Source of the DNA: Bacteroidales bacterium
GTDB taxonomy: Bacteria; Bacteroidota; Bacteroidia; Bacteroidales; UBA932
Length of the DNA stretch: 64,000 bases
Assembly: GCA_017550525.1 (NCBI GenBank)
Contig: JAFZOU010000002.1
Coordinates: forward strand, 1 to 64,000
Direction: 5' to 3'
The notes under the pieces are model-generated. The model did not search any database, was not told the DNA's origin, and saw only the letters and a program-made list of their open reading frames with translations. Position numbers and translations under genes: made by a program. Of this stretch, positions 1-64,000 are shown piece by piece. The first letter of the stretch is position 1; every line of letters begins with the position of its first letter.

Positions 1-2
1 AT

Positions 3-3000
3 TTCCAGTACGCTGAGGACCAGAAAACCTATGAGGACAGCCAGGAATTCAAGGAGGCCGATACCTACTTTGCCGCCCGTATGGAGGGCAAGGAAGAGGA
101 AACCGGCCTTATCCCGGACAAGAAGCCTGAAGAAGGCGAGACCGGCCACGAAAAATGGCTCCGCAAGAAGGTTGGGGCAGACGTCATGGCGCGCTGCCAC
201 GCCCTTGGCATATCCCCCGCAAGTTATTTTCTGTCGGCCGCATTCCTTACCGTAAGCGCCTTCTCCGGGCAGAAGAAAGTGTTCCTCTGCACCGTTGCCA
301 ACGGCCGCACGGATATGCGCGCATCGGACACCTTCGGCATGTTTGTAAATACCATGCCGCTGGTGGGAGAGATCGGCACCCAGAGGGCCGATGACTTCCT
401 GAAGGAAACCGACGCCGGCTTTTCTGCCACCCTCTCATATCAGAACTATCCCTTTGCCAGGATATCATCGGCCTACGATTTCCATCCGGCAGTGATGCTG
501 GCTTACCAGGTGGGCCTGCTGGAAAAATACAGTGTCAACGGCAAGCCGCTTGAGGACGAACTGATAACTCAGGATACGCCAAAATTCCCCCTGAGCATAT
601 TCATAGAGGGCACGGAGGGGGTCCCGGAACTGGCACTTGCCTACGACGACTCCCTGTACTCCGAGCCCCTTGTGCAAAGTTTTGCAGACTCCCTTGAGAC
701 TGTTTGCCGCGGCCTCCTGAAAGACTGCCCCGTGACAGAGATTCCGTTTGTGGAGGGAGACCGCCTTAAAGAGCTTGACAGCTTCAATGACTACATTCAG
801 GAAGTAGATCTTAAGGAGACTGTTGTTACCCTTTTCCGCAAGCGGGCAAAGGCCACTCCGGATGCCCCTGCGGTGCTGTTTGAAGGCAAAACTATCAGTT
901 ACGGGGAACTTGACCGCTTAACGGATTCCCTGGCCGCAAAGATCATCAGCCTTGGCCTTAAGGATGAGGATGTGGTTTCCGTCCTCATAGGTCGAAACAC
1001 CTGGATGACAAAGGCTTCCCTTGCCGCAATGAAGGCGGGCTGCGCTTATCAACCACTGGATCCTTCCTACCCGCCGGAGCGCCTAAACTTCATGATAAAG
1101 GACTCCTCGGCAAAACTTCTTATTGCCGATAAAGAGCTTCTCCCGCTGGTAGGAGACTACAAGGGGCCCGTCCTTACCACCGCGGAACTTGAGAAGCTGC
1201 CGGACGCGCCCTGCAAAGCAGCGGGCCCTAAGCCGGAGAGCCTCTATATCCTGCTTTACACATCCGGTTCCACAGGTACGCCCAAGGGCGTTATGCTGGA
1301 ACAGCGCAACCTTGTGAATTTCTGTGCCTGGTACAATAATTATTTCAACCTCAAGGCCGGAGACCGCGTTGCGGCCTTTGCCAGCTACGGGTTTGACGCA
1401 AACATGATGGACCAGTACCCCGCCCTCACCTGCGGCGCTTGTGTGTGCATTATCCCGGAGGCTGTCCGTCATGACCTTGGCGCCCTTGACCGTTTCATCA
1501 CGGAAAACGGCGTCACGCACAGTTTCATGACCACCCAGGTGGGCGTTATGTACGCAAGGAACTACCCTGAAAACAAGTCCCTGAGGCACCTTTCCGTAGG
1601 CGGAGAAAAACTGGTTTCCATGCCGCCGCCCTCCTACGCGTTCTACAACGGTTACGGCCCTACAGAGTGTACCATCTTCTCCACCATTTTCCACGTTTTG
1701 GAAAAGGAGGACAACATTCCTATCGGCCATCCGCTCAGTAACGTTCAGCTTTATGTTGCCGATTCCCAGATGCGCCGCCTTCCCGTTGGTGCAGCCGGAG
1801 AACTGCTAATAGGCGGCGCCGGAGTGGGCCGTGGATATCTTAACAACCCGGAAAAGACAGCCCAGAGCTTCATAGAAAACCCGTTCCAGCCCGGTGTAAG
1901 GCTGTACCGCTCCGGCGACATAGTGCGTTACAGGCCGGATGGAAACATTGAATTCGTGGGCCGCCGCGACGGCCAGGTGAAGATCCGCGGCTTCCGCATA
2001 GAACTTAAGGAAGTAGAGGCCGTAATCCGGGAAATCCCGGGCGTGAAAGACGTCACCGTACAGGCGTTTGACGCCCCTTCCGGCGGCAAATTCCTGGCGG
2101 CATATATAGTGGCCGATGGAACCTTTGACACCAAGGCTGCGGCAGACTATATCCGTGAGCGCAAACCTCCGTACATGGTCCCCGCTTCATGGATGCAGCT
2201 TGACAAGATTCCTCTCAACGTAAACCAGAAGGTCGACCGCAAGGCCCTGCCGCCGGCAACGCCAAGCGCCATGGACGACTACGTTGCTCCCGTTGGCGAG
2301 ACAGAAAAGACCCTGTGCTCCATTTTTGCCGATGTCCTTGGCGTGGAAAAGGTGGGCGCCACAGACTCTTTCTTCGACCTTGGCGGCAGCTCCCTTATGG
2401 TCACCAACGTAATGGTGAACGCCGAAAAGAAAGGCCTTCGCTTTGCCTATTCCGACGTTTTCTCCCATCCATCGGCCCGTGCCCTTGCAAAATTCCTGGG
2501 CGGAGACGAGACCCCGGCGGGGCAGGACAGCAATATAACGGAATACGACTATTCCGCAATTGACGCCCTCCTGAGGAAGAACAGCCTTGAATCCTTTGTC
2601 GCAGGGAAACGAATTACCCTTGGCAAGAATATCCTCCTTACCGGCGCAACCGGATTCCTTGGGATACACGTCCTTAAAGAACTTATTGAAAGCACCGGCC
2701 CGGATACCACAATATGGTGTCTCCTGCGCTCTAAAGGAGAAATCACGCCCCAGCGCCGCCTGAGGGAAATGCTGGTCTACTACTTTGAAAAGGACTACCG
2801 GAAACTGCTTGGCACCCGCATCCTGGCCGTGGAAGGCGACATAACAAAGCCGGAAAGCCTGAACGCCCTGAAGGATATCGACATGGTGTTTAACTGCGCC
2901 GCAAACGTCAAGCACTTCTCAAAGGGAACGGATATAGAGGATATAAACTACGGCGGAGTAAAGAACCTTGTGGCTTTCTGTGAAGGGAGTGGAGCATATC

Positions 3001-3719: not shown

Positions 3720-3721
3720 GG

Positions 3722-16376: not shown

Positions 16377-19300
16377 ATGTTAATAAGTAAAAAATCCACG
16401 GCTCAGCTTCAGGAAAAACTCTTAAAGAGTAAGGAAATATTCTGCTCCGGACTGTTTCTTTCTGCCAGATGGGTTGTTCTGTCAAAGGCAGCTCAGAACA
16501 ATATAAACCTAATAGTCCTTCCAACTATTGAGTTGGCCGAATATTGCAGTGCAGACCTCTATAACCTTACGGAAGGAGACTGTGTTTTCTTCCTCCCTGT
16601 CTCAGGAAAGAATATAGAGAGAAGTAATTATAAATCTTCCCTTGGTGTCCAGAGAACAGCAGCTATTGGCAAAATCCTTGATATAAAGGCCGATGAACAG
16701 GTTTTCATAGTAACTTATCCCGAAGCCCTGGAAGAACTCATCCCTTCGGAAAAAACCCTTGTATCGGCCCATCTGGAGATAAAACCCGGAGACAGGCTTC
16801 CTTATGAAAAACTAAGGGAAATCCTTACGGAAAAGGGCTTTGAGAAAGTTGATTTTGTGTCAGCGCCGGGTCAATACGCCATAAGGGGCGCCGTCATAGA
16901 TATCTTCTCCTATTCGCTGGATAAACCCTACAGAATCAGTTACTTCGGAAATGAAGTAGAGAAAATCCATACCTTCGACTGCAATACCCAGCTTTCAATC
17001 GGCAATATTGACAAGGCCGATATCTACTCAAACATCGCCGCCGGCGGTGAAGAGGGTGGAGACTCAATCATCGGCCTTCTTCCTGAAGATACCACCGTAT
17101 GGCTGGATTCTTCAGATATGTACAATAACCGGGATTTTCTGAAGGATTTTCTGAAATTCCGTCACGTTTACCTAGACGTTCCGCTTAAAAAACAGGGCGT
17201 CAGTACCGTAGAATTCAATATTGCGCCTCAGCCGGTATTCAACAAGAACTTTGAACTCCTCATAAACGACATCCAGTCAAGGCTGGAATCAGGCTTCAAG
17301 GTATATATAATAGGAGAGAAGGAAGCCCAGCTGGAAAGGCTTAAATCTATCATGGTCCAGGAAGAGAAGATAGCCCTTCCTGAATTCATAAAGGGAAAGA
17401 ATCTCCATTCCGGATTCATAGACCAGCAGGATAAGATATGCCTTTACACTGATCATGAGATATTTGACAGATTCCACCGCGTCCGTATTCGCCGCACAGT
17501 TGAAAAGAGCGAACAACTTACCCTCAATGACCTCAGTTCCTTCAATATAGGAGACTATATAGTCCATATAGACCACGGCGTAGGAGTATTCGGCGGTCTT
17601 GTCAAGATGAAGGACGACTACGGAAGGGTGAAAGAGGTTGTGAAACTGATGTACGGAGGTTCAGACGTAGTTTTTGTATCAGTTCATTCCTTAAATAAGA
17701 TATCCCGCTTCCGCTCAAAAGAGGGTGAGCCTCCAAGGATAAACAAACTTGGTTCAAAGACCTGGATAAACCTCAAGATATCGGCAAAATCCAAGATGAA
17801 GGATATTGCCAAGGAACTTATCCAGCTATATGCCGCCCGCCGCTCCCAGAAGGGCTTTGCCTTCAGTGCCGATACCTACCTCCAGGAAGAACTGGAATCG
17901 TCCTTCATGTATGAGGATACCCCGGATCAGGAGAAGGCTACAAAGGCGGTAAAAAGGGATATGGAGGACAGCTGCCCCATGGACCGTCTGGTATGCGGAG
18001 ATGTAGGCTTTGGAAAGACGGAAATAGCCATAAGGGCTGCTTTCAAGGCCGTTACTGACTCAAAACAGGTAGCTGTGCTGGTTCCTACAACCATCCTTTC
18101 CTTGCAGCACTTTGAAACCTTCAAGGCACGCCTCCAAAACCTTCCCTGCACTGTGGAATATGTTAGCCGCCTTAGGAGTGCTAAGCAGATAACGGATATA
18201 AAGAGACGCCTTAAATCCGGCGCAATAGACATTCTTATCGGCACTCATAAGATTCTTGGAAACGGCTTTGAATTCAAGGATCTGGGACTACTTATAATTG
18301 ATGAGGAGCAGAAGTTTGGTGTATCGGCCAAGGAGAAACTCCGCCAGATGAAAACAACCGTAGACACCCTTACGCTTACGGCTACCCCTATTCCGAGGAC
18401 CCTTCAATTTTCCCTTCTTGACGCCCGTGACCTTTCAATCATCCAGACCCCGCCGCCAAACCGCATCCCTATCCAGACTGAGATTATCCTCTTTAACCAG
18501 GATGAGATTAAGAGCATAATAAATTATGAACTGAACCGCGGCGGCCAGATATTCTTCCTTCACAACAAGGTAGAGGAACTGCCTTCCGTTGAGGAAATCC
18601 TCCACCGCCTGGTACCTGACATGAAGATATGCGTGGCGCACGGCCAGATGGAATCCCGTGACCTTGAAGACCGAATGCTGGCCTTCATGAGGGGAGACTA
18701 TGACCTTCTTCTCTGCACCACCATCATTGAAAACGGCCTGGATATACCTAACGCCAATACTATAATTATTAACCAGGCTCAGAATATCGGCCTCAGTGAC
18801 CTCCATCAGTTAAGGGGCAGGGTTGGCAGGTCCAACAAGAAGGCCTTCTGCTACCTCATAGTGCCTCCGCTAATCACAATAACGGACGAAGCCCGCCGCA
18901 GGCTCAAAGCAATTGAGGAGTTCTCAGACCTTGGCAGCGGCTTCAACATTGCCATGCAGGACCTTGATATCCGCGGCGCCGGCAATCTCCTTGGCGCAGA
19001 GCAGAGCGGTTTCATTGCCGATATGGGCTATGAGACATATCAGAAGATCCTCTCTGAGGCTATGGATGAAATAGGCATAGAGACCGGAGTAACCCACAGG
19101 AGCACCGATGAAAAGTTTGTTGACGACTGCACCATAGAAACGGACCGCCCGGCCTTCATTCCTGACAATTACATAGATATTACGGCAGAGAAAATACGTA
19201 TCTACAAGGTGCTGGATTCCCTTACCGAGGACCGGGAGATAGACCGCGTTGCAAGCCAGATTGAAGACAGGTTCGGCCCTCTTCAGGAAGAGGTTAAAAA

Positions 19301-19568
19301 CCTTGTCAATGTGGTTAAGATAAGGAATCTTGGCGCGCAGCTTGGATTTGAGAAGATAATAGTGAAGAACGGTATGCAGATCATGTTCTTCATCAACAAT
19401 CCAATATCGCCGTACTACAAGTCAAAGGTGTTTGAAAGGGCTATGGCCGCGGTCAATATTTATTCGGCCGATTTCAAACTCAATCAGGACGGCGGAAAGC
19501 TCAGAACCGTTTCACGCGGTGTAGATTCGCTTGATAAGGCCCTTGATATTTTGAAAAAACTGCAATAA
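16377..19568 (+). CDS. mfd: Transcription-repair coupling factor Mfd
   Basis: 1063 residues. An N-terminal UvrB-homology region is followed by the RNA-polymerase-interacting CarD-like domain with YIVHIDHGVGVFGGL (about 390-480). The DEAD-type translocase has Walker A GDVGFGKTE (about 541-549), a DEEQ box (about 641), TATPIPRTLQ and GRVGRSNKKAFCY, and a C-terminal TRCF domain follows. Mfd removes RNA polymerase stalled at lesions and recruits UvrA. It is slightly shorter than the E. coli protein, as in other Bacteroidetes. It starts 15 bases after the last DnaA-like box and leads the rightward gene run; coaX follows after 18 bases. Confidence 0.96.
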   Translation: MLISKKSTAQLQEKLLKSKEIFCSGLFLSARWVVLSKAAQNNINLIVLPTIELAEYCSADLYNLTEGDCVFFLPVSGKNIERSNYKSSLGVQRTAAIGKILDIKADEQVFIVTYPEALEELIPSEKTLVSAHLEIKPGDRLPYEKLREILTEKGFEKVDFVSAPGQYAIRGAVIDIFSYSLDKPYRISYFGNEVEKIHTFDCNTQLSIGNIDKADIYSNIAAGGEEGGDSIIGLLPEDTTVWLDSSDMYNNRDFLKDFLKFRHVYLDVPLKKQGVSTVEFNIAPQPVFNKNFELLINDIQSRLESGFKVYIIGEKEAQLERLKSIMVQEEKIALPEFIKGKNLHSGFIDQQDKICLYTDHEIFDRFHRVRIRRTVEKSEQLTLNDLSSFNIGDYIVHIDHGVGVFGGLVKMKDDYGRVKEVVKLMYGGSDVVFVSVHSLNKISRFRSKEGEPPRINKLGSKTWINLKISAKSKMKDIAKELIQLYAARRSQKGFAFSADTYLQEELESSFMYEDTPDQEKATKAVKRDMEDSCPMDRLVCGDVGFGKTEIAIRAAFKAVTDSKQVAVLVPTTILSLQHFETFKARLQNLPCTVEYVSRLRSAKQITDIKRRLKSGAIDILIGTHKILGNGFEFKDLGLLIIDEEQKFGVSAKEKLRQMKTTVDTLTLTATPIPRTLQFSLLDARDLSIIQTPPPNRIPIQTEIILFNQDEIKSIINYELNRGGQIFFLHNKVEELPSVEEILHRLVPDMKICVAHGQMESRDLEDRMLAFMRGDYDLLLCTTIIENGLDIPNANTIIINQAQNIGLSDLHQLRGRVGRSNKKAFCYLIVPPLITITDEARRRLKAIEEFSDLGSGFNIAMQDLDIRGAGNLLGAEQSGFIADMGYETYQKILSEAMDEIGIETGVTHRSTDEKFVDDCTIETDRPAFIPDNYIDITAEKIRIYKVLDSLTEDREIDRVASQIEDRFGPLQEEVKNLVNVVKIRNLGAQLGFEKIIVKNGMQIMFFINNPISPYYKSKVFERAMAAVNIYSADFKLNQDGGKLRTVSRGVDSLDKALDILKKLQ

Positions 19569-21613: not shown

Positions 21614-22945
21614 ATGAAAAGATTAGCTATCATCACCGCTTCCCTCCTGACAGTTTTATCAGGATGGAACATGAGCGCCCAGACCACCTCAAAGTATGGT
21701 CACGGCGAAGACAGCCTCAACTGCCTCAAGTACCTTTCGTTCTACACGGAGCGTTTCAAGAAGGACGAGAAAGACCCTATGGCACTTTCAAACTGGCGTC
21801 AGGCCTACAAGTACTGCCCTGCCACCGCTTCTGAGAACATCTTCGTGAACGGTACCAAGATGATGACAAACCTGTACCGCAGCACCAAGAACGCAAAGGA
21901 GCGTGCCGCCATCGCAGACACCATCCTTATGCTTCAGGACCAGCGTCTTGCCGCTTATCCCAAGAAGAAGAGCACTATCCTCAATAATAAGGGTCAGTAC
22001 ATCATCAACTACAAGAGCGCAGACGTACAGTATATGTATGAGAACCTCTCGGGTATCATGAATGAGCTTGGAAAGGACACCAAGAGCAACATCCTGAGCG
22101 CCCTCATGCAGTCTGCGGTTGCTCAGTACAGGGAGGAGAAATTATCGGCCGATGATATCATCGCCCTGTATGAGAACGTGAGCGGTATCCTTGAGCAGGC
22201 CCAGCCCCGCAACGAGAAAGAGACTGCCGCACTGGCAGAGGACAAGGAGAAGATCGAGTCCATCTTTGCAGCCAGCAAGGTTGCTTCCTGCGAGAACCTC
22301 ATAGCTATCTTCACCCCCCGTTTCGAGTCAGATCCTGAGAACCTCGCTCTTGTGACCAAGATAGTCCAGCTCATGAACGGCGCCGACGATTGCGCTTCCA
22401 ATGACCTGTACCTCAAGGCTGCAACCGCAAAGTACAAACTGGATCCTTCACACGGCAGCGCATTCGGCCTGTACCGTCTCAACGCCGCCCGTGGAAATGT
22501 TGCCGATGCCGGTAAGTATCTCCAGGAGGCAATCGAGTCACCTGAGTCAGATGATGCCACCGATGCCCAGTACTGGTACGAGATGGCAACCTTCAGCTAC
22601 AAGAACGGTATGCGCGCAAGGGCTTATGATGCAGCCCGCAAGGCAGTTGACCTTGACTACGGTTATGCCGGTAAGGCCTATATGATCATGGGTAACCTCT
22701 GGTCATCGGCCTCCTGCGACGACGTAGTTAACAAATATGCACGTTACTGGGCCGCAACGGACTGCTACCAGAAGGCACGCAGCGCAGATGCCTCCCTCGC
22801 AGATGACGCCTCCGCTTCAATATCGGCAGTGGCCCGTTACTATCCTGAGGCTGCAGAGGCCTTCATGTACGACCTAACCAAGGGACAGAGCTACACCGTC
22901 AGCTGCGGCGGAATGGTTGCAACCACTACAGTACGCGTGCAGTAA
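21614..22945 (+). CDS. Periplasmic TPR-type repeat protein
   Basis: 443 residues from MKRLAIITAS; an in-frame Met further upstream (21551) would overlap the previous gene and lose the signal peptide. The signal ends near GWNMSAQ. The rest is helical, with TPR-like repeats such as YWYEMATFSYKNGMRARAYDAARKAV and a Tyr/Ala-rich pattern. In Bacteroidales a TPR protein usually occupies this place between the outer-membrane protein and lptC. It probably mediates protein contacts in the periplasm; no enzymatic motif is seen. Confidence 0.8.
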   Translation: MKRLAIITASLLTVLSGWNMSAQTTSKYGHGEDSLNCLKYLSFYTERFKKDEKDPMALSNWRQAYKYCPATASENIFVNGTKMMTNLYRSTKNAKERAAIADTILMLQDQRLAAYPKKKSTILNNKGQYIINYKSADVQYMYENLSGIMNELGKDTKSNILSALMQSAVAQYREEKLSADDIIALYENVSGILEQAQPRNEKETAALAEDKEKIESIFAASKVASCENLIAIFTPRFESDPENLALVTKIVQLMNGADDCASNDLYLKAATAKYKLDPSHGSAFGLYRLNAARGNVADAGKYLQEAIESPESDDATDAQYWYEMATFSYKNGMRARAYDAARKAVDLDYGYAGKAYMIMGNLWSSASCDDVVNKYARYWAATDCYQKARSADASLADDASASISAVARYYPEAAEAFMYDLTKGQSYTVSCGGMVATTTVRVQ

Positions 22946-29272: not shown

Positions 29273-29864
29273 TTGCGGGAAGAGCACGGAGGTATCCATC
29301 CCCCGCAGCATCAACACCGCCCTTGACCCGGAACTCAAAAGCCGGGTCAGGGACGGTTCCCTTTTTATCTGGGAGTGCCCGTACTGCGGAAGGCGCAGCG
29401 TGGCGGTCTCGGAAACCCTTTACCATGACCCTTCCGCCAAACTTATGCTGTGGCTTCTTCCCGGCATGGCGGAGCCATCATCAGAGGCCCAGGAGGCCGT
29501 AAAAGGCCTTGAGGGCTACACCCTCCGCATTGTCCGTGAGGTAGGGGAACTCATAGAGAAGATAAATATTGCCGATGCCGGCCTGGAAGATACCACCGTT
29601 GAGATGTGCAAGTGGGTTACCAGGAGGGAATTATCGGCCAAAAATCCTGCCGCGGCAGACGCCCGCCTCAAGTTCCTTCGCCTGGAGGGCGCAGACAATG
29701 ACCTTGTGTTTGCATTCCCGCTGGATGGCAACATGCAACTTGTTAACGTGGGATTCAATGTCTATGAAGATGCCCGCGGAATTATCTCCAGAAACCCGGC
29801 CGTAAGGCCCTCAGAAAGCTTTTCTGAGGTTAATCAAGGATGGCTGGAAAGATTTTTTCGGTAG
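29250..29864 (+). CDS. CpXC-domain protein
   Basis: 204 residues. The N-terminal zinc-ribbon-like segment has CSNCGK and, 30-odd residues later, CPYCGRRS, the paired CxxC motifs of CpXC proteins, probably binding zinc. The C-terminal half is mixed alpha/beta without a motif I recognise. The role of this family is unknown. It overlaps the end of galK by 23 bases in another frame, so the two should be co-transcribed and translationally coupled. Its 3' end overlaps the convergent lipoprotein gene by 35 bases. Confidence 0.8.
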   Translation: MALANCSNCGKSTEVSIPRSINTALDPELKSRVRDGSLFIWECPYCGRRSVAVSETLYHDPSAKLMLWLLPGMAEPSSEAQEAVKGLEGYTLRIVREVGELIEKINIADAGLEDTTVEMCKWVTRRELSAKNPAAADARLKFLRLEGADNDLVFAFPLDGNMQLVNVGFNVYEDARGIISRNPAVRPSESFSEVNQGWLERFFR

Positions 29865-45477: not shown

Positions 45478-47565
45478 TTATTTTGCGTAAGTAATCTCGT
45501 TGATGATATTGGTGGCACCGCCGTACTTCTCCACAAGCCACAGAACGTAGCGGATATCCACGCAGATGCAGCGCTGCAGGGCGGGCTCAAACATAACGTC
45601 GGAGCTCATGCTCTCCCAGTTTCCGTCAAATGCAAGGCCGATAAGATTGCCCTTTGCATCCAGTACCGGAGAACCGGAATTACCGCCGGTTATGTCGTTG
45701 TTGGTGAGGAAGCAGGTGCGGAGAGTGCCGTCCTTGGCTGCCCACCTGCCATAATCCTTTGCAAGGAGGAGGGACTTGATGCCTGCAGGAAGGATGAATT
45801 CAGGATCATCCGGGTTTTCCTTCTCCAGTAGGCCCTGGGCGGTTGTGTAGTACTCATACTTGAGCGCGTCCTTGGGGCTGTAGGGCAGCACGTGGCCGTA
45901 GGTAAGGCGCATTGTGGAGTTGGCGTCCGGGTACATAGCCTTTCCTTTCTGCCACTCCATAAGGGCAGCAGCAAAGTTCTTGCGGGCCTTGTCATAGGAG
46001 GAATTGGGCATGCCGTAAACGGTCATATATTTACCCATGAGGGCTTCCATAGTTGCCTGTGCAAGTTCCATTGCGGGGTCCTGCATAGCATCATCTATAC
46101 TTGAGGAAAGGGCCTTTTCCTCTGAGGTGAAAAGGCTGGAGGCAAACAGATTCTCCACGTATGCGGGAATGTCCAGAGAGGCAAAATCCCTGTCTCCAAT
46201 CTTTAGGTAATCCTCCGGAGCGGCAGTTTTGCGATAGTGCTCCAGAAGGGCCACGGCGGTCTTTTTGTCAATGCTTACAACGTAATCCCGATAATATTCC
46301 TTAAGGGTTTCACGTGCGTCTTCAAGGGCCTCGGTGCTATCTTTTCCGTCCCTCAGTTCGCGGTGGAAAAGACCGGGCAGGGCGTTTGCAAACTGCACAA
46401 GCTCAATCTGGTAAGGGCCTTCTACAATACGGTTTACGGCGGCCGAAGCCTCAGCGGTGTTCTCCACGTGCTTTGCAATATCGGCAACGGGATCTCCGTA
46501 TTTTTCCTTGCGGGCGGGATCGGCCTCAATCCAGGCCTTCAAGGCCGCTTCCTTAGCCTCTTCACGGCCGATAATGTCAAGGTTCTTGAATGCCAGTTCC
46601 TCGCCCTGCCACTTCTTCCAGCCGTTGGCGCTGCCGGCGTATTTGTCGGCATACTTGAGCTGGACGGATTTATCGGCAATCATTTCTTCCCACATGATGT
46701 TCTGGCGGATGGTGCGGGCATCTATGCGGATACGGTTGGTGGCGATCATGTCCTGGAGCTGCGCGGCCGTCTGGAAACGCTGGGTGCGGCCGGGATAGCC
46801 CATGACCATGGTGTAATCTCCTTCCTTGACGCCCTTCAGGGATACCTTCAGGCTCTTTGCGGGCTTATAAGGGACGTTGTCGTCGTCGTATTCTGCAGGC
46901 ATGTTGTCTTTATCGGCATACACGCGGAACATGGAGAAGTCGCAGGTGTGACGGGGCCACATCCAGTTGTCGGTCTCTCCGCCGAATTTACCCATGGATG
47001 CCGGGGGTGCGCCCACAAAGCGGACATCCTTGTATGTGCGGTAGATAATAAGGTAATGGACGTTGTCGTTGTAGAAGCCTGTTACAACGGCCTTGCAGCC
47101 GGGATTGGCTTCTTCAGCGGCCTTCTCAAGGGCATCGGCCGATATTGTCTCTTCCTCGATTACCTTGGTCACGTCTTCCATGGAAACCAGGAAGGTGACG
47201 GTAAGGCCCGGGCAGGGGATCTCCTCATCCAGGGACTTGGCCCAGTAGCCGTCCATGAGATAGTTGTGCTCATCCGTGGACAGGCCCTGGATGCTGCTGT
47301 AACCGCAGTGGTGATTGGTGACAAGAAGGCCTTGGTCAGAGATCATCTCTCCGGTGCAGCCGCCTCCAAAATGCACAATTGCATCCTTGAGGGAGGTCTT
47401 GTTGATAGAGTAAATCTGCTCCGGGGTAAGTTTGCAACCTGCCGCGCGGAGGTCTTTTCCGTTAAGTTGTTTGAGGAGCGGGAGAAGCCACATTCCTTCA
47501 TCGGCCACCGCAGAAATGCTTACGGCAAGGGCCGCGACAATAGTAAGAATACGTTTCATCTGCAA
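45478..47565 (-). CDS. S46-family dipeptidyl peptidase (DPP7/DPP11 type)
   Basis: 695 residues. The signal peptide ends near ISAVADEG. The chymotrypsin-like catalytic His is in LLVTNHHCGY and the nucleophile Ser in ITGGNSGSPVLDAKG; the family's helical domain lies between. These periplasmic enzymes cut dipeptides from oligopeptide N-termini, feeding asaccharolytic or amino-acid metabolism in Bacteroidetes. After the Ser motif comes GLAFDGNW. In the family the residue in the place of this Gly separates DPP7 (Gly, hydrophobic P1) from DPP11 (Arg, acidic P1), so DPP7-like specificity is suggested, subject to a proper alignment. Confidence 0.93.
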   Translation of the reverse strand: MQMKRILTIVAALAVSISAVADEGMWLLPLLKQLNGKDLRAAGCKLTPEQIYSINKTSLKDAIVHFGGGCTGEMISDQGLLVTNHHCGYSSIQGLSTDEHNYLMDGYWAKSLDEEIPCPGLTVTFLVSMEDVTKVIEEETISADALEKAAEEANPGCKAVVTGFYNDNVHYLIIYRTYKDVRFVGAPPASMGKFGGETDNWMWPRHTCDFSMFRVYADKDNMPAEYDDDNVPYKPAKSLKVSLKGVKEGDYTMVMGYPGRTQRFQTAAQLQDMIATNRIRIDARTIRQNIMWEEMIADKSVQLKYADKYAGSANGWKKWQGEELAFKNLDIIGREEAKEAALKAWIEADPARKEKYGDPVADIAKHVENTAEASAAVNRIVEGPYQIELVQFANALPGLFHRELRDGKDSTEALEDARETLKEYYRDYVVSIDKKTAVALLEHYRKTAAPEDYLKIGDRDFASLDIPAYVENLFASSLFTSEEKALSSSIDDAMQDPAMELAQATMEALMGKYMTVYGMPNSSYDKARKNFAAALMEWQKGKAMYPDANSTMRLTYGHVLPYSPKDALKYEYYTTAQGLLEKENPDDPEFILPAGIKSLLLAKDYGRWAAKDGTLRTCFLTNNDITGGNSGSPVLDAKGNLIGLAFDGNWESMSSDVMFEPALQRCICVDIRYVLWLVEKYGGATNIINEITYAK

Positions 47566-47614: not shown

Positions 47615-48685
47615 ATGGAGAAAATGGATAAAAATCAGATACTTTCCTGGCTAGGAGAGGTTACTCACCCCGCAAAAGGAGATGCCCCCCTTGCCGCACT
47701 TGGGATGATTGAGGACGTGAAAGTTACGGATGGAAGCATCCATGTCATCCTGGCTTTCCCTAAGCGCCCGGACCCCCTTAAGAACTACCTTGTTGGCGCC
47801 GTTCAGTCCTGCCTCTACAGGCACGCTCCCGGCGGCACTTCCATAGAAGTTGACACCGTTGTGAAAGAGCCCGCAAAACCCGCCAAGAAGGGCATAGAGT
47901 TCAATCTGGAGCAGCTCAGGGAGGTACGCCATATCATCGGCATAGCATCCGGAAAGGGCGGCGTCGGGAAAAGCACCGTTGCGGTGAATCTTGCCGTCGC
48001 CCTTGCCCGCCTTGGCTACAGGGTTGGCCTTGCCGATGCCGATGTCTACGGCCCCTCCATCCCCACCATGACCGGAACGGAGGACGTAGAGATAGAGATG
48101 TACGGCAACGACGCAGAAGACACCCTCTTTGTCCCCGTGGAAAAATACGGCGTCAAGTGGCTCTCCGTTGGTCACGTCTCAAATGCCGGGCAGGCGCTTA
48201 TCTGGCGCGGCCCCATGGCTTCAACCGCCCTCAAGCAGATCATCCTCCAAACCCTCTGGGGCCCCCTGGACTTCCTTCTCATAGACATGCCCCCGGGAAC
48301 CGGAGACATCCATATCACGCTCATCGGGGACGTCCCCGTGGAAGGCGCCGTCATCGTCACAACGCCCCAGACCGTTGCCCTCTCCGATGTCCTCCGCGGC
48401 GTGAACATGTTCCGTAACCCCCAGGTCCAGAAGCCCGTTTTCGGCCTTGTGGAAAACATGTCCTGGTTCACCCCGCTGGAGCATCCGGAAGAGAAGTATT
48501 TCATCTTCGGCAAGGGTGGCGGTGAAAAGATGGCCCAGGACCTTGACATCCCGTTCCTTGGCCAGATTCCACTAGTCCAGTCTATCCGAGAGGACGCAGA
48601 CTCTGGCACCCCCGCAGCCCTTGAGGACCGCCCGGACTCTGAGGCCTTCATGAACCTTGCCCGCAAGCTCGCCGCCGCGGTGTAA
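47615..48685 (+). CDS. mrp: Iron-sulfur cluster carrier ATPase Mrp/ApbC
   Basis: 356 residues from [10 protein letters not shown] (the Met at 47624 is an equally good start; the ORF's first Met at 47594 lies before the promoter element). An N-terminal MIP18/DUF59 domain (about 1-90) is followed by a deviant Walker A P-loop [21 protein letters not shown], and Walker [13 protein letters not shown]. The Cys pair common in ApbC proteins is not seen near the C-terminus. Mrp delivers Fe-S clusters to target proteins. Single gene, followed by a strong hairpin. Confidence 0.93.
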
Positions 48686-48690
48686 TCGGC

Positions 48691-48800
48691 CCCGTGGAGA
48701 TAATACGCTGACATACAGTAATTTACGCAAAAACGTCTGCCCGAATCCGGGTAGACGTTTTTCAATAACACGCTGAAAATCAGCGCTTTGGCTCCACGGG
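48691..48800. repeat. Nested inverted repeats between mrp and the EF-G2-like gene
   Basis: An outer perfect 9-bp pair (CCCGTGGAG at 48691-48699, CTCCACGGG at 48792-48800) encloses the main terminator hairpin and a smaller one near 48769-48787 (CGCTG/CAGCG). Nearly the whole intergenic region could fold into one branched structure. Confidence 0.55.
48729..48762. terminator. Bidirectional terminator between mrp and the EF-G2-like gene
   Basis: AAAAACGTCTGCCCG pairs with CGGGTAGACGTTTTT (one mismatch) around AATC, with A and T runs on both sides, between two convergent genes. Confidence 0.85.
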
Positions 48801-48803: not shown

Positions 48804-50942
48804 TTAGTCCTCCTCCTGCTCCTGAGCAGCGTATTCGGCCAGAAGTTTGGTCTGAACGTCTGCGGGAACCTGAACGTACTCTGCGAACTTCATGGAGAAG
48901 GTTGCGGAGCCGCCGGTGAGTGAGCTCAGGATGGTGGAGTAGCGGTAGAGCTCTGCAAGGGGAACACGGGCGTGAAGCACGGTGAAGCCCTTATCCATAT
49001 CCTGGTTCATGATCATGCCACGACGGGTATTGAGGTCACTCATGCAAGGACCCACGTACTCGTTGGGAGTGATGATGTCTACATTGTAGATAGGCTCAAG
49101 GATCTTGGGACCAGCATTGCGGAAGGCCTCCTTGAAGGCGTTACGGCCGGCGATGATGAAGGCGATTTCCTTGGAGTCCACGGGGTGCATCTTACCGTCA
49201 TATACATAGACGCGGATGTCACGGGCGTAGGAACCGGTGAGAGGGCCTTCCTCCATCTTTGACTTGATACCCTTAAGAATAGCAGGCATGAAGGAAAGAT
49301 CGATGGAACCACCAACGACGCAGTTGTAGAATTCAAGCTTACCACCCCACTCAAGGTCTGTGATATCCTGGCTCTTGAAGTTGAAAACGGTGTCCTTACC
49401 GTCAATCTTGAAGTTCTTGGGGGCTTCCTGACCTTCTACGTAAGGGCAGACCAGCAGGTGAACCTCACCGAACTGACCGGCGCCGCCGGACTGCTTCTTG
49501 TGACGGTACTGTGCTGTTGCAATCTTGGTGATGGTCTCACGATAGGGAACCTTGGGAGCGTAGAGCTCGATGTTCTGCTTGAACTCGTTGGTTACTCTCC
49601 ACTTAACGTAGTTGATGTGCTGTTCACCCATACCGGTGAGGATGGTCTGACGCAGTTCCTTGGAGTATTCTACGCCGATGGTAGGATCCTGGGCTGCAAT
49701 CTTGTTGAGAGCGTCACCAACCTTAGCTTCGTCGTTCTTATCCACAGCCTTCACTGCGCAGCGGTACTTGGCATCAGGGAATACCATGTGCTTGATAGCC
49801 TCTACGCCGTTCTGGGCAAGGGTAACGTCTGTCTTACCGGCCTTGAGCTTCATGACGCAGCCGATATCACCGGCAGCAATTGAGGAAACCTTTTCCTTCT
49901 TTGCACCTGCAACAGCATAGATGGCGCTGAGGCGCTCACCGTTGCCGGTTTCAGGGTTCACAAGGTCTGCGCCCTCATTGAGGGTACCGCTCATCACCTT
50001 GAAGTAGGAAACCTCACCAAGGTGCTGCTCTACGCTGGTCTTGAAGATAAACAGGGCCACGGGACCTGCGGGGTCACACTTGATGGTGCCACCGTCAATT
50101 GTGGGCTCCTCACGGCCTTCCGGTGAAGGAACTACATTCACGATGAATTCCATCAGGCGCTTGGTGCCGATATTATCCTTGGCTGCGGTGCAGAAGACGG
50201 GGATGGTCTCACCCTTCTTCAGGCCTTCACGGAGACCCTCACGGATTTCGTCGGTGGTGAGCTCCATGGTCTCGAAGAACTTCTCCATGAGTTCATCGGA
50301 GCCTTCAGCTGCCTTTTCCATGAGTTCTGCGCGGAGTTCTTCGGCCTCATCTGCGTATGCGGCGGGGATGTCAAGCTCCTGACCCTTTTTGTCGTAGAAC
50401 TTCATGGTGATAACATCCACAAAGCCTTCCAGGCCAAGACCGGGGTTCACGGGGAACTGGCAGATGGCGGCCTTCTTGCCGAACTCCTCTGCGATAGCGG
50501 CGCGAACGCCGTCCCAGTTTGCCTTATCATGGTCCAGCTGATTTACGGCGATGATCATGGGAACGCCGTACTGGTCTGCGTAACGGGCGAAGAGGGTGGT
50601 ACCCACCTCGATGCCTGCAGAACCGTTCATAACCATCACGGCAGCGTCTACCACCTTGAAGGCAGAGAGGGCTCCACCGGAGAAATCATCGGAACCGGGG
50701 GCGTCAATGAAGTTGATCTTGCAGCCGCCGAACTCTGCGTACAGAGGGGTGGCGTTGATGGACTTCTGGTTGGTCTGCTCGAACTCAGTGTTGTCCGATA
50801 CGGTGTTCTTTTCCTCTACGGAACCGCGGCGGTCAATAACTTTGCCTTCAAAAAGCATAGCCTCTGAGAGGGTGGTCTTACCGCTGCGGGGTGCGCCAAT
50901 CAAGACGACGTTGCGGATGTTTTTAGTTGTGTAAGCTTTCAT
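48804..50942 (-). CDS. Elongation factor G paralogue, EF-G2-like, with altered GTPase motifs
   Basis: 712 residues with the five-domain layout of EF-G. The P-loop is GAPRSGKTT (16-24). Switch II is DAPGSDDF (80-87), where canonical EF-G has DTPGHVDF: the catalytic His is Ser84. G4 is NQLD (134-137) instead of NKxD. Domain IV (SGGAGQFGEVHL, GSIDLSFMPAILKGIK) and domain V are present. As I recall it, B. thetaiotaomicron EF-G2 (BT2167) supports translation without GTP hydrolysis during carbon starvation and gut colonisation, and this protein resembles it in its N-terminus. It is not the housekeeping fusA, which would sit in the str operon. Single gene, divergent from the ferritin-like gene. Confidence 0.88.
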   Translation of the reverse strand: MKAYTTKNIRNVVLIGAPRSGKTTLSEAMLFEGKVIDRRGSVEEKNTVSDNTEFEQTNQKSINATPLYAEFGGCKINFIDAPGSDDFSGGALSAFKVVDAAVMVMNGSAGIEVGTTLFARYADQYGVPMIIAVNQLDHDKANWDGVRAAIAEEFGKKAAICQFPVNPGLGLEGFVDVITMKFYDKKGQELDIPAAYADEAEELRAELMEKAAEGSDELMEKFFETMELTTDEIREGLREGLKKGETIPVFCTAAKDNIGTKRLMEFIVNVVPSPEGREEPTIDGGTIKCDPAGPVALFIFKTSVEQHLGEVSYFKVMSGTLNEGADLVNPETGNGERLSAIYAVAGAKKEKVSSIAAGDIGCVMKLKAGKTDVTLAQNGVEAIKHMVFPDAKYRCAVKAVDKNDEAKVGDALNKIAAQDPTIGVEYSKELRQTILTGMGEQHINYVKWRVTNEFKQNIELYAPKVPYRETITKIATAQYRHKKQSGGAGQFGEVHLLVCPYVEGQEAPKNFKIDGKDTVFNFKSQDITDLEWGGKLEFYNCVVGGSIDLSFMPAILKGIKSKMEEGPLTGSYARDIRVYVYDGKMHPVDSKEIAFIIAGRNAFKEAFRNAGPKILEPIYNVDIITPNEYVGPCMSDLNTRRGMIMNQDMDKGFTVLHARVPLAELYRYSTILSSLTGGSATFSMKFAEYVQVPADVQTKLLAEYAAQEQEED

Positions 50943-50990: not shown

Positions 50991-51105
50991 GTCATTTTTC
51001 GCGCAAATACAATATTTTTCCCTGGGCGGCTCGTCTTCTTTGGTCTGCAGTGGCATTTTGGCCGATAAATCCCCCAAAAAACGAAAAAATGCAAAAAAAA
51101 TTAAA

Positions 51106-58169: not shown

Positions 58170-58172
58170 CCT

Positions 58173-59847: not shown

Positions 59848-62800
59848 TTAGAAGGTTACTTTTACACCTGCGTTAACCTGCCTGTAGGCCGGGTAAGTGT
59901 TGAAATCCAGGCCCTGGGTAACGGCGCTGGCGCCGTTTGTGGAAACTTCCGGGTCAAAGCCGGAGTACTTGGTAAGAGTGAGGAGGCGGTTGGCGCCCAC
60001 AAACACGCGTGCGCCCTTGATGAAGTTCACTCCCCAGTCCTTGAGAGGAAGGGTATAGCCAATCTCGATGTTACTGAGGCGGAGGTAACTTGCATCCTCA
60101 ACATAATGTGAGTTCACAAAGTTGCCGTACTGGGGGCCGCCCTCACGTTGCCACGTTCCCGCTATCATTGTGGTTGAAGGGTTGGAGCGCGTCCAGCGGT
60201 CTGCGCAGGTCTTGAGGCGGTTGTTGTCTTCCAGAAGGAGACGGGAGATGTTCAGCATAGATCCGCCTATTGCGGCATCGAAGAACAGCGTGAAGTCAAA
60301 GTTCTTCCAGCGGATGGTGTTACCCCAGCCGAAAACGAGGTTGGGTTCACCGTGGCCAAGGGAATGGCGGTCTTCGTCGGTAATGACTCCGTCTTTGTTG
60401 AGGTCTACGAATTTAGGGTCTCCGGGCTGGGACTTTGGCTGAGGGGCGTAGGTTTCACCGTCCTGGATGATACCGGCCCACTCATAACCGAAGATGGTGG
60501 AAAGGGGCTCCTCTTCCTTCACCATGGCATACTGCACGTAGTCGTAACTTCCGTGAGGACGTACGGTGTAGTAGGTGGGAGTCTCAATGGAAACCACCGT
60601 ATTGCGGTTGTGGGAAAGGTTGAGGGTTGTCTGCCAGGAGAAGTCCCTGGTGTCAAACACGTGGTACTTTGCAAAGAACTCAACGCCGCGGTTGCGGATG
60701 GAGCCATTGTTGCCTTTCTGGGTCTGGAGACCAACAGTGGTCATGGAGATGTTAACGTCGGAAAGGAGGTCCGTGGTGAGTTTGTCGTACCAGTCAAAGT
60801 TGATTTCTAGCTTGTTGTCAAGCAGGGCTGCATCAAGGCCGAAGTCCAGCTGGGAAGTGGTTTCCCACCGGAGAAGGATATTGCCGGCATTGTTGGGGAA
60901 CATACCCTTCACAATGCTGTTACCGCCAAGGTAGATGTCCTGGAAAGCGTAGGTCCTGAGAGATTTATATGTGCCGATACCATCGTTACCGGTGCGGCCG
61001 TAACTTGCGCGCAGCTTGATGGAGTTGAACAGGGGCTTTGTGAACTCCATGAAGGGTTCGTCGCCTATCTGCCAGGCAAAGGAGCCTGCGGGGAAGACAC
61101 CCCACTTGCTGCCTTCACCAAAGTTGGAAGCGCCGTCAAAACGCACGCTGGCGTTGAAGATGTATTTGTCAAGGAGCACGTATTCCGCGCGGCCGAAGAA
61201 GGAGATGTTGGTTTTCTCGCTCTTTGCGGTGCTTATCCAGTCAATCTGGTTTGCAGCACCCATATTATTATATGAGAACACGTCCGTTGTGAAGTCGTGG
61301 GCACCCATACCGGTGTAGTTGTACGTGTTCTTCATCCAGCTGGCGCCGCCTATCACCTTTACGTCGTGGACACCGAACTTCTTGTGGAAGGTGAGAAGGC
61401 CCTCAAGCTGCTGATAGTGGGAATCTTCAAGTTCCTGGGTTGCCTGGCCGTTGTAGGATGCGCCCACGGAGGTGTTGCGGTCAAAGTAACTCTGGTATTT
61501 GTCGTTCTCACGGCTGGTGGAATACTGCACGCGTGCCTTCAGGAACGGGAAGGGATCTGCCTCCGCATACAGCGTTACGTAATTGTTGTTCACGCTCACA
61601 TTGTAATCCTGATACAGGGTTTCGTAGTAAACCTTTTCCACACGGGAGTCACGGCCGAAGACGTCCTTCCCTTCAACCGTGTTGAGAGGATTTGCCAGGA
61701 ACATCCAGTAGATGACGTTACTGGTGGAACTTGCCGTACCCGTGCTGAAATACGTACGGTTTGTGGCGGCAAGATATGCGTTTACACCAAGCCTCAGCCA
61801 CTTTGTCGGGGTGAAATCGGCATTCACGCGTGCACTGGTGCGGGCAAAATCTGAATTGAGCACAAGGCCCTTGTCCGTCACGTTCACAAAGCTTGCCGCG
61901 GCCCTGACTTTGTCGTTGCCGCCCGTCACGTTCACGGCGTGGGTCTGGGTGAGGGCGGTGCGGGTCATCTGCTTGATCCAGTCCGTGCCCGCGCCCTTGA
62001 AGGCCTGCTGCTCCTCAGTGTAGGGAGGGTCACCGGCGCTGCCGTTTTCACGCCACACGTTCATGTCAAAGTTTATCTTGTCCTCCGCGTTCATCATCTT
62101 CCAGGGGTTGCGGAGGATTTTGGCCGATATATTATAGGAATAATCCACGGAGAACCTTCCTGCTGCACCCTGCCTGGTGGTGATGAGGATGACGCCGTTA
62201 GCGCCGCGGGCACCATAGATTGCGGTTGCCGCAGCGTCCTTGAGGATCTCTATGCTCTCGATATCCTCCGGGCTCACCTGGTTTCCAACATTACTCTGGA
62301 TTCCGTCAACCACGTACAGAGGGTCATTGCTGGCCGATATTGAAGATGAACCGCGCACGCGTATGTTGATGCCGCCGCCGGGCTCGAAGGAAGTCTGCCT
62401 TACAGCAACGCCCGCCGCGCGGCCCCTGAGGAGGTCTGCGGTGTTGGTGATGACGCCGGCCTTCACTTCATCCGCTTTGATGGAGGAGACGCTTCCCGCG
62501 AGGTCACGCTTACGGGTTACGCCGTAGCCCACCACCACAACGTCTTCCAGAATCTCTGCGTCCGTTTCCATATGGACGGCCATGGAGGTTCCGGAAACCG
62601 TGACAGTTTGGGTTTTCATGCCAAGGCAGGAAATCTCAAGGGTCTGGCCCTTGGAAGCCTTGATTTCAAACAGACCGTTGTTGTCAGAAGTGACACCGGT
62701 GCTTGTTCCCTGGATCAGGACAAAGGCACCCGCAACAGGGGCTCCGTTTTCGTCCTGGATCACTCCTTTTACAGTTTGCTGGGCAAACGCCTGGAGGGGT

Positions 62801-62850
62801 AAAACCACTGCCAGGAGGAGCAGAAAGACTTTATTAATTAGATGGCGCAT
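59848..62850 (-). CDS. SusC/RagA family TonB-dependent transporter (second locus)
   Basis: 1000 residues. Signal ending near LQAFAQ, carboxypeptidase-regulatory-like domain (TVKGVIQDENGAPVAGAFVLIQG), TonB-box-like DVVVVGYGV, plug with LLRGRAAGVAVRQ, INIRVRGSSSISASNDPLYVVDG and LKDAAATAIYGARGANGVILITTRQG, then a barrel ending in NAGVKVTF. It imports the ligand of this locus. It heads the six-gene leftward operon. No TAnnTTTG element was found in the 101 bases between it and the divergent sensor gene in its own direction. Confidence 0.96.
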   Translation of the reverse strand: MRHLINKVFLLLLAVVLPLQAFAQQTVKGVIQDENGAPVAGAFVLIQGTSTGVTSDNNGLFEIKASKGQTLEISCLGMKTQTVTVSGTSMAVHMETDAEILEDVVVVGYGVTRKRDLAGSVSSIKADEVKAGVITNTADLLRGRAAGVAVRQTSFEPGGGINIRVRGSSSISASNDPLYVVDGIQSNVGNQVSPEDIESIEILKDAAATAIYGARGANGVILITTRQGAAGRFSVDYSYNISAKILRNPWKMMNAEDKINFDMNVWRENGSAGDPPYTEEQQAFKGAGTDWIKQMTRTALTQTHAVNVTGGNDKVRAAASFVNVTDKGLVLNSDFARTSARVNADFTPTKWLRLGVNAYLAATNRTYFSTGTASSTSNVIYWMFLANPLNTVEGKDVFGRDSRVEKVYYETLYQDYNVSVNNNYVTLYAEADPFPFLKARVQYSTSRENDKYQSYFDRNTSVGASYNGQATQELEDSHYQQLEGLLTFHKKFGVHDVKVIGGASWMKNTYNYTGMGAHDFTTDVFSYNNMGAANQIDWISTAKSEKTNISFFGRAEYVLLDKYIFNASVRFDGASNFGEGSKWGVFPAGSFAWQIGDEPFMEFTKPLFNSIKLRASYGRTGNDGIGTYKSLRTYAFQDIYLGGNSIVKGMFPNNAGNILLRWETTSQLDFGLDAALLDNKLEINFDWYDKLTTDLLSDVNISMTTVGLQTQKGNNGSIRNRGVEFFAKYHVFDTRDFSWQTTLNLSHNRNTVVSIETPTYYTVRPHGSYDYVQYAMVKEEEPLSTIFGYEWAGIIQDGETYAPQPKSQPGDPKFVDLNKDGVITDEDRHSLGHGEPNLVFGWGNTIRWKNFDFTLFFDAAIGGSMLNISRLLLEDNNRLKTCADRWTRSNPSTTMIAGTWQREGGPQYGNFVNSHYVEDASYLRLSNIEIGYTLPLKDWGVNFIKGARVFVGANRLLTLTKYSGFDPEVSTNGASAVTQGLDFNTYPAYRQVNAGVKVTF

Positions 62851-62927: not shown

Positions 62928-62935
62928 TAATTTTG
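62928..62935 (+). promoter_or_regulatory. Bacteroidetes -7 element for the sensor gene
   Basis: TAATTTTG, ending 16 bases before the ATG at 62952. Confidence 0.5.
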
Positions 62936-62951
62936 TCTAAAATTGAACTTT

Positions 62952-64000
62952 ATGGGCGTCCAGCGTTTATTAAAAATTTTTACTTTCTGCGTTTTTCTGG
63001 CATCCTGTCCAGCATTGGCGCAAAGCTATTTCTGCAAGCATGTAGACATCCGTGACGGACTGTCACAACCAAGCGTAACCGCCATCCTTTCCGACAGCCA
63101 GGGCGCCGTGTGGATAGGAACCAGATTCGGCCTTAACAAGTACCGCAGCGGCAGCATTTCTGTGTTTGGCGCAGGAGAGGCGGGCTCCGGGCTGGAGGGA
63201 AGCTATGTACACAGTCTTTTCCTTGATGCGGAAAAGCGGCTCTGGATAGGAACGGAGGCCGGGCTCTTTGTGAGGGATGAAGACTGGGATCACTTTACCT
63301 GCATAGAGGGTGGTACCATTGTCCGCAGCGCTACTGAAACATCCCAGGGAATACTCTTTGGCGGCACCGGAGGAGTCCACTTCTTATATCGGCCAGGAGA
63401 GGAATTCATACGTGATTACGTGTCAATAGAGAACGCTTTCATAGTGAAGATAATCCCAGTGGACCAGGACCGTTTCCTTCTTGTAGACCGCGGCCTGGGA
63501 CTGATGGAGATGTCCCTTTCCGGAAGAAGCGTCAGGAAAATTGCCATTCCGTCCCTTGAGTACGCAATCATAATGGACGCCTGCATTTTTGACGGAGCCC
63601 TGTACCTTTCCGTCTATAACAAGGGGCTTTGCTGCGTGGACCTTGAGTCTATGACGGTGACGCGCATATACAACACGGCAAACTCCTCCCTTACCTTTGA
63701 TATTGTCCTCTCCCTTCTGGAAAACGACGGGAAACTCTGGATAGGAACAGATGGCGGCGGAATATGTATCCTAGACCGCGGGGAAATGACTGTTCTGGCC
63801 GATGTAAGCGGCGCGGGGGGAGAGCTGGAGGAAGCAAAATCATTCACTTCGCTCTATACGGACAGCCGTGGTGCAATCTGGGCCGGAACGGTAAGGAACG
63901 GGGCATTCTCCCTGAAGACTACGGATATCAGGGTGTATACAACAAGTTCCCCGGGCAGGCAGGTGAACCTTTCAAACAATGTTGTCATAAGCCTCTGGAA
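62952..64000 (+). CDS. Two-component-type propeller sensor, probably a hybrid two-component regulator; 3' end outside window
   Basis: Translation from ATG 62952 stays open to the window end (349 codons seen). A signal peptide (LLKIFTFCVFLASCPALAQ) precedes repeated two-component-propeller units: DGLSQPSVTAILSDSQGAVWIGTRFGLNKY, SLFLDAEKRLWIGTEAGLF, SLLENDGKLWIGTDGGGICILD and SLYTDSRGAIWAGT (each split here across the repeat). This WIGT pattern is the periplasmic sensor of Bacteroidetes hybrid two-component systems, which continue with a Y_Y_Y domain, histidine kinase, receiver and AraC-type domain. The kinase part is not in view, so that is inference. Divergent from susC, it is the expected activator of that locus. 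Confidence 0.88.
   Translation, partial: MGVQRLLKIFTFCVFLASCPALAQSYFCKHVDIRDGLSQPSVTAILSDSQGAVWIGTRFGLNKYRSGSISVFGAGEAGSGLEGSYVHSLFLDAEKRLWIGTEAGLFVRDEDWDHFTCIEGGTIVRSATETSQGILFGGTGGVHFLYRPGEEFIRDYVSIENAFIVKIIPVDQDRFLLVDRGLGLMEMSLSGRSVRKIAIPSLEYAIIMDACIFDGALYLSVYNKGLCCVDLESMTVTRIYNTANSSLTFDIVLSLLENDGKLWIGTDGGGICILDRGEMTVLADVSGAGGELEEAKSFTSLYTDSRGAIWAGTVRNGAFSLKTTDIRVYTTSSPGRQVNLSNNVVISLW

Follow-up and report, generated by a model that had tools for sequence, protein, structure and literature searches.

A short DNA word enriched genome-wide in one clade of gut Bacteroidales and its possible role in recognition of self DNA

Why does a 64 kb stretch of a Bacteroidales genome carry the seven-base word ATCGGCC, or its reverse complement GGCCGAT, almost a hundred times? 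The stretch (hereafter, the window; 52% GC) is C69:1-64000 of the draft genome G000, here called the own genome, which comprises 2.38 Mb in 136 contigs and is 91% complete. Its genus is probably Cryptobacteroides, as suggested by sequence matches of its mfd gene product to records named 'Candidatus Cryptobacteroides' and to many rumen and gut Bacteroidales metagenome-assembled genomes (MAGs). Few lineages are known to have words this dense, and in the cases of uptake sequences and Chi the word led to a dedicated DNA-reading machine. The genome holds about 3,600 copies, which its more distant relatives do not accumulate; such a pattern is most familiar from bacteria in which a word of this kind serves for recognition of own DNA. 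The rise described here took place inside one genus sampled with 200 genomes at many densities, so that how the word rose, its reader and what drives it can be followed through successive stages and not just in a finished state.

The excess is genome-wide and is not explained by codon usage

The plus strand of the window has 50 copies of ATCGGCC and 46 of GGCCGAT, 96 in all, where a first-pass annotation made from the sequence alone had counted the former correctly and put the latter at 44. The both-strand expectation is 9.5, 7.5 and 14.9 under Markov models of order 1, 2 and 3, respectively, and the word is the top-ranked 7-mer of the window under all three, in keeping with the roughly tenfold excess (96 versus 7.5 at order 2) that the annotation had claimed. 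A maximal-order model gives 155 x 132 / 221 = 93, close to the observed count; this only reflects inflation of the two component 6-mers, ATCGGC and TCGGCC, and we set its apparent lack of excess aside. The annotation had reasoned that its claim would fall if the rest of the genome carried the word at normal frequency or if a codon-shuffled model predicted the count, and neither is the case. The whole genome holds 1,800 + 1,796 = 3,596 copies, about 1.5 per kb, compared with 227 for the word read backwards, an imperfect control that contains the generally avoided CTA; we therefore relied on codon shuffles instead. The excess is thus confirmed as real and genome-wide. As a separate feature of the window's composition, words with CTAG or GATC (CCTAG, CTAGC, CGATC) lie well under their order-1 expectation across its length.

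The codon analyses used a sample of 41 stretches of the own genome, one of them the window, in which 303 genes and their protein classes were set by simple script rules with no gene finder. Fourteen of these 41 stretches are N throughout (the short contigs L113, L114, L116-L118, L124, L126, L129, L159-L161, L164, L166 and L168), leaving 422,467 of 451,073 bases. Synonymous codon shuffling within genes predicted 86, 87 and 81 sites in three runs, against 558 observed. Relative to the genes, 284 sites are in sense and 276 in antisense orientation, and the main codon phases write Ala-Asp (242), Ser-Ala (169) and Ile-Gly (112), the amino-acid pairs following from the phase. The annotation had proposed that the word shapes codon choice through the rare TTA, and this is borne out: TTA accounts for 2.4% of Leu codons, yet for 12 of the 21 that precede TCG-GCC, versus 31 of the 793 that precede Ser in other contexts. 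In non-coding pieces no longer than 600 bp, 31 sites are seen where an order-2 model expects 2.7. Codon shuffles and intergenic sites together rule out codon usage as the sole cause, and the word acts at the level of DNA. Across six rich species (rich meaning at least 1,000 copies per genome), the excess is 5.7-fold in cytosolic, 6.5-fold in lipoprotein, 5.0-fold in membrane and 6.3-fold in secreted proteins; surface genes were considered as a site-poor class and rejected, single poor genes existing within classes that are not poor. Taking ln(6.4), the scaled pressure per site would be of the order of 1.9.

The word extends to HATCGGCM and has no strand polarity

Among the 21 single-base neighbours of ATCGGCC, only ATCGGCA is clearly enriched (3.07-fold over codon shuffle), the other 20 ranging from 0.25 to 1.49. 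A change of the outer base had been said to lower counts sharply; ATCGGCA/TGCCGAT is indeed rarer in the window (47 versus 96), but it does not drop to background. A preceding G (GATCGGCC) gives 1.6-fold over codon shuffle, against 6.0- to 9.5-fold for A, C and T, and the general GATC shortage in the window may contribute to the GATCGGCC deficit. The word is closer to HATCGGCM (H, A, C or T; M, A or C), with weak flank preferences and no strand polarity, and the first-pass interpretation is in this sense partly supported, its definition of the word having been incomplete.

With synonymous choice given the amino acid controlled for, coding flanks in the own genome avoid C at -3 (z -10.7) and G at -1 (-5.6) and prefer G at -6 (+3.6), T at +8 (+6.0), A at +9 (+6.8) and A at +10 to +12 (+3.1 to +3.6). 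The 63 non-coding sites show the same tendency: four have C at -3, four C at -2, three G at -1 and five G at +7, and 32 have A at +10. The profile is partly shared by 610 coding sites of G266, G167, G292 and G270, which avoid G at -1 (-4.4), prefer G at -6 (+5.1) and A at +10 to +12 (+2.5 to +3.2), avoid C at -3 more weakly (-3.0) and prefer T, not A, at +9 (+4.8). ATCGGCA is enriched 3.0- to 3.1-fold in G000 and G328 versus 1.6- to 1.7-fold in those four genomes, so tolerance at position 7 differs between sub-clades, a dialect-like shift.

The near-equal orientations of the window (50/46), from which the annotation had argued against a Chi- or KOPS-type polarity, recur elsewhere. No strand polarity was seen over 18 stretches (summed chi-square 11.0), with 138/140 in 160 kb of G328, and the imbalances in eight long stretches are within sampling error, the largest being 59/80 in G270. 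This balance rules out a strand-polar (KOPS-type) signal in the stretches examined. Spacing is near Poisson genome-wide (coefficient of variation 1.09). Alternation of neighbouring orientations, apparent at first look (345/594 in the own genome, 260/446 in other rich species), failed to repeat in 400 kb of new stretches (338/659). Same-orientation pairs 4-250 bp apart number 190 in five species where 254 are expected, a shortage seen in the own genome (79 versus 121) and weakly in the four other species (111 versus 133). The word is not palindromic, ATCGGCC differing from its own reverse complement, and about 620 sites include 13 ATCGGCCGAT pairs.

The word is restricted to one clade and graded in density

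The annotation had proposed a comparison with related genomes. In a search of 200 genomes of the genus, the own genome included, 33 are rich, with up to 4,066 copies in G266, and the remainder have 18 to 998. Of the 32 other rich genomes, 23 fall among the 27 best Mfd matches to the own genome; the nine beyond these best matches are G084, G185, G209, G210, G219, G221, G253, G259 and G332, some of them with broken Mfd matches. In a tree built from 52 Mfd rows, of which 50 belong to the genus, density falls in steps from 0.53-1.69/kb in a clade of 20, through 0.34-0.54 in the neighbouring four, to 0.22-0.29. Most other members of the tree have 0.09-0.27/kb, the exceptions being G162 (0.41), G084 and G209 (0.63) and G329 (1.03). 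The last carries two Mfd copies, is placed outside the clade and is probably a mixed genome; two Mfd copies are also found in G167 and two other genomes. The ratio of observed to codon-shuffled counts is 4.3-7.2 in six rich species, 3.3 in the middle set, 3.1 in five outliers and 1.2 in the low set, and the outlier value suggests that these may be separate, weaker gains of the word.

Outside the genus, no density above about 0.41/kb was seen in samples of 149 family and 393 order genomes (completeness of at least 80 requested). None of 23 poorer species of the genus, sampled at 20-40 kb each, showed a conspicuous substitute word, the nearest candidate being CAATTGA in G213 (9 versus 0.6 expected). 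A Bacteroidaceae MAG from horse faeces, which lies outside the genus, has 17 copies in a 17.3 kb stretch (L096) where an order-2 model expects 3.3, perhaps an independent enrichment. Some genomes of the order are almost free of the word, among them G375, G352 and G587 with 0, 2 and 0 copies in 2.7-4.4 Mb, and avoidance of GGCC is perhaps behind such near-absence. Within the own genome, one prophage is site-poor: a Mu-like stretch (L121, on contig C50) with matches to terminase, portal, head, transposase and MuB-like proteins has 2 sites in 14.9 kb, about the background expected from window composition.

Sites are retained in most rich pairs and arise by several routes

Retention was scored in pairs of genomes as the sites kept of the first and of the second genome, with control words in brackets:

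G000-G328: 71/84 and 71/101 (154/285)
G000-G269: 35/57 and 35/45 (68/175)
G000-G324: 25/35 and 25/40 (54/110)
G000-G266: 25/48 and 25/49 (52/177)
G328-G266: 25/73 and 25/62 (46/224)
G266-G167: 36/77 and 36/68 (90/266)
G266-G270: 12/43 and 12/37 (48/172)
G000 sites in poorer species: G182 4/30 (12/140); G227 3/32 (14/107); G239 1/17 (2/50)
G000 sites in G200, a middle-density clade member: 3/34 (32/121)
G266 sites in poorer species: G182 2/33 (30/140); G227 6/31 (14/110)

Sites are kept above control words in most rich pairs, the exception being G266-G270. Among close relatives, in an unpolarised table that pools three pairs sharing G000, the changes that make or break the word at rates over baseline are G>A at position 1 (8/21 neighbour words, 6.0 times), A>G and T>G at position 4 (7/26, 4.0 times, and 8/41, 5.7 times), A>C at position 7 (14/151, 2.7 times) and T>C at position 3 (4/26, 2.3 times); changes at positions 2 and 5 and T>A at position 1 were not over baseline. 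Given this retention and the several types of change at several positions, it is likely that a weak pressure acts within the clade on the word as a whole. The T:G-type neighbour ATCAGCC is depleted to 0.3-0.7 in the rich and middle sets, compared with 0.8 in the outliers and 1.0 in the low set.

Gene families in rich and poor genomes

Seven gene families were searched in 68 genomes, 33 rich and 35 poor. Four of them are methyltransferase families, and none tracks the word (Type I and other families were not searched): C5 methyltransferase is found in 8/33 rich versus 15/35 poor genomes, N6/N4 PF01555 over cut-off in 7/33 versus 18/35, Eco57I over cut-off in 17/33 versus 23/35 and D12 in 9/33 versus 10/35. 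The richest genome, G266, and G277 match none of the four, the two assemblies being 87% and 82% complete.

AddB-type nuclease is present throughout (33/33 and 35/35). The addA-addB distance, read by eye, could not be scored in 14 of the 68 genomes (only one match in 11; contig edges in G218, G269 and G270). The two genes are neighbours in 10 rich and 25 poor genomes, 35 in all, and parted in 19, all rich; nine of the parted cases lie on one contig, 19-28 kb apart and with comEC between them in all nine, and ten are on separate contigs with room for the partner gene. The parting is one event on one branch, the inner clade, and is a hint in the direction of a Chi-like role. Because the middle-density relatives G341, G293, G151, G215 and G210 keep addA and addB adjacent, it does not start the enrichment. 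Replacement of AddB was considered and finds no sign in its favour: identity between G000 and G266 (58%) is about that between G266 and G182 (58%), AddB thus following the species, in a poorly resolved comparison of 13 usable rows in which the G293 row is in the wrong frame and those of G000 and G328 are partial (764 aa).

What might read the word

The density, the absence of polarity, the extended profile and the shift between sub-clades are best fitted by a signal for self-recognition, or one resembling an uptake sequence, whose reader would be non-classical; we put this forward tentatively and at less than even confidence. Also in its favour are the action at the level of DNA, the better retention of sites in most rich pairs, the variety of changes that make or break the word, the site-poor Mu-like prophage and the presence of ComEC in every rich genome. 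As the classical uptake machinery was not found, the claim is that the word works like an uptake sequence, not that it is one. HATCGGCM would be an orientation-free, genome-wide signal of one Cryptobacteroides clade, gained one site at a time as a weak directional pressure acted on the word as a whole. A machinery that favours word-bearing DNA during uptake or recombination of kin DNA would let kin fragments with the word enter or recombine more often, so that site-bearing alleles would spread; the word would become frequent throughout the resident DNA, and newly arrived DNA would be without it. We infer both the existence of a reader and an origin of the pressure in uptake or recombination; such a reader would differ from the classical receptor of type IV pili. 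More specifically, and more doubtfully, a pilus-independent recognition of self DNA in gut Bacteroidales, acting in uptake or recombination, may read HATCGGCM, have arisen within one genus and have already shifted its last-base specificity between sub-clades. If the word marks self DNA for uptake or recombination, it would point to sexual exchange and a new receptor in a large group of bacteria of the rumen and gut whose rich genomes all lack a type IV pilus ATPase over cut-off.

By sequence pattern, HATCGGCM resembles the DNA uptake sequences (DUS) of Neisseriaceae and the uptake signal sequences (USS) of Pasteurellaceae: a short asymmetric word at about 1-2 per kb in both orientations, with lineage-bound variants, tolerated neighbours and flanks, and rarity in mobile DNA. 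It differs in sequence and phylum, and in that rich genomes lack a type IV pilus/type II secretion system (T2SS) ATPase over cut-off; uptake of HATCGGCM-bearing DNA is here a proposal. Riemerella also belongs to the Bacteroidota, and no published DUS or USS from Bacteroidetes/Bacteroidota was found in open-access full texts. Riemerella columbina is reported to prefer its own DNA (PMC7965970), and 5,918 kingDUS are given for 2.4 Mb (PMC3630211); the word's approximately 1.5/kb falls within the uptake-sequence range. The searched open-access full texts likewise yielded no role for ATCGGCC/GGCCGAT, as the annotation had supposed.

Several results weigh against this proposal. The families searched yielded no reader. 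We know of no competence shown in this genus. The type IV pilus/T2SS ATPase (PF00437) is over cut-off in 0/33 rich genomes, which leaves them without the one kind of receptor that we know of; it is over cut-off in five of the 35 poor genomes (G164, G189, G197, G214 and G244), unlike the other 63 of the 68, and nearly all genomes give weak matches under the cut-off. ComEC is present in 33/33 rich and 34/35 poor genomes and, being equally present in the latter, explains nothing by itself; in the own genome its domain lies in two overlapping frames (C36:21404-22122), either through a break or frameshift or through an assembly error. No gene class is enriched across the four classes and six rich species, the flank preferences are weaker in the diverged species G266, G167, G292 and G270 than in the own genome, and the depletion of ATCAGCC is what T:G repair would give. 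The pair G266-G270 shows no difference between sites and controls, and sites of the own genome are kept below controls in G200.

Four other explanations were ranked below self-recognition. The best placed of them, though unlikely, is a Chi-like role in which the clade's AddAB helicase-nuclease would read the word and switch from degradation to repair, thereby protecting self DNA. Chi, like HATCGGCM, is a word of seven or eight bases found genome-wide (for RecBCD/AddAB), the nuclease is present in 68/68 genomes, addA and addB are parted only in rich genomes of the inner clade, with comEC between them where both share a contig, and the shortage of close same-orientation pairs would be expected if orientation matters. 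Known Chi sites are mostly polar, an orientation bias relative to replication being usual, not strict, and HATCGGCM is much denser than Escherichia coli Chi. The absence of polarity in HATCGGCM, the single parting event with adjacency kept in middle-density relatives, an AddB that follows the species and an orientation effect that is strong in the own genome only all speak against it. Ranked next, and also unlikely, is a mutation or repair bias, in which some mismatch-repair activity of the clade, whether Vsr-like or not, would make the word without benefit. The equal excess in all gene classes tested and between genes would follow, and the depletion and fast turnover of ATCAGCC (7/26) recall the CCWGG excess that arises through Dcm/Vsr repair in E. 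coli. Several kinds and positions of change make or break HATCGGCM over baseline, unlike the single change of a Vsr system or one lesion, and C5 methyltransferase is absent from 25/33 rich genomes. For a repair enzyme, 7-8 bases plus flank preferences is also a long target.

An improbable alternative, raised by the annotation's comparison with HIP1 of cyanobacteria, is that a methyltransferase marks the word and that methylation-linked repair or function maintains it. The likeness holds for density and for a highly iterated spread in and between genes that is graded among relatives, and the motif contains GGCC and an adenine on each strand. It does not extend further: HIP1 is palindromic and tracks methyltransferases (PMC4390886), whereas HATCGGCM is asymmetric, the four families searched do not track it, and G266 and G277, incomplete as they are, match none of them. 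Least probable in our estimate is a clade-specific chromosome-organising protein for whose binding the sites are kept as such. The extended, partly degenerate profile with its A/T-rich 3' side and the near-Poisson spread would suit such a protein; known architectural motifs such as matS, however, are far less dense.

Sites and features in the window

The 96 sites over 1..64000 are given by their first base on the plus strand and by the strand that reads ATCGGCC:

Sites 1-19: 56-, 386-, 467+, 1722+, 2111-, 2471+, 3255-, 3998+, 4651-, 4903+, 6911+, 7370+, 9883-, 10790+, 11339-, 13646+, 14270-, 15256-, 16688-
Sites 20-37: 16763+, 17015-, 17070+, 18323+, 18786+, 19466-, 20088+, 20541-, 21192-, 22144+, 22147-, 22705+, 23245-, 23555+, 25175+, 26378+, 26609-, 27657-
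Sites 38-56: 29633+, 29998-, 30967-, 31384-, 31735+, 32533-, 32629+, 32929-, 33238+, 33559+, 34178+, 34195-, 34682+, 35215-, 35913+, 36268+, 36275+, 37232+, 37381-
Sites 57-77: 38395-, 38736+, 38760-, 38884+, 39703+, 40415-, 40686+, 40958-, 41000-, 41366-, 41460+, 42298+, 43090-, 43567-, 43951-, 44422+, 45636-, 46519+, 46566-, 47134+, 47137-
Sites 78-96: 47500+, 48685+, 51060-, 51378+, 51467-, 52967-, 53202+, 53457+, 54760-, 55166+, 56003-, 56441+, 57060+, 57438+, 57762+, 62122-, 62332-, 63388+, 63797-

Individual features, with expected site numbers taken from mean gene density where so marked, are as follows:

16377..19568, plus strand: mfd, the phylogenetic marker gene
22142..22153, plus strand: TTATCGGCCGAT, two opposed overlapping sites (22144+, 22147-), including the first TTATCGGCC example
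29631..29639, plus strand: second TTATCGGCC example
36268..36281, plus strand: directly adjacent double copy (36268+, 36275+)
38734..38742, plus strand: third TTATCGGCC example
40242..41573, plus strand: site-rich gene, 6 sites versus 2.0 expected
47134..47143: ATCGGCCGAT, overlapping palindromic pair (47134+, 47137-)
48685..48691, plus strand: site outside script-called genes
48804..50942, minus strand: EF-G2 gene of Bacteroidota type, 0 sites versus 3.2 expected (mean gene density)
51060..51066, minus strand: site outside script-called genes
59848..62850, minus strand: susC by the annotation's label, 2 sites versus 4.5 expected (mean gene density)

The three TTA examples quoted by the annotation are present, at positions that differ by one or two bases (TTATCGGCC starting at 22142, 29631 and 38734), as are its two intergenic sites, both outside script-called genes; that at 51060 was placed exactly and the other starts at 48685, not 48686. 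Its site-free EF-G2-like gene and its first susC with two sites were correctly described.

Near the left end of the window, a gene resembling those of nonribosomal peptide synthetases (81-3719, plus strand; 1,212 aa) matches an adenylation domain (TIGR01733) over cut-off and, at its end, a reductase-like domain under cut-off. Its lowest E-value is to the aureusimine synthetase AusA family, far under the cut-off of that family, and a small peptide-aldehyde or pyrazinone product is conceivable.

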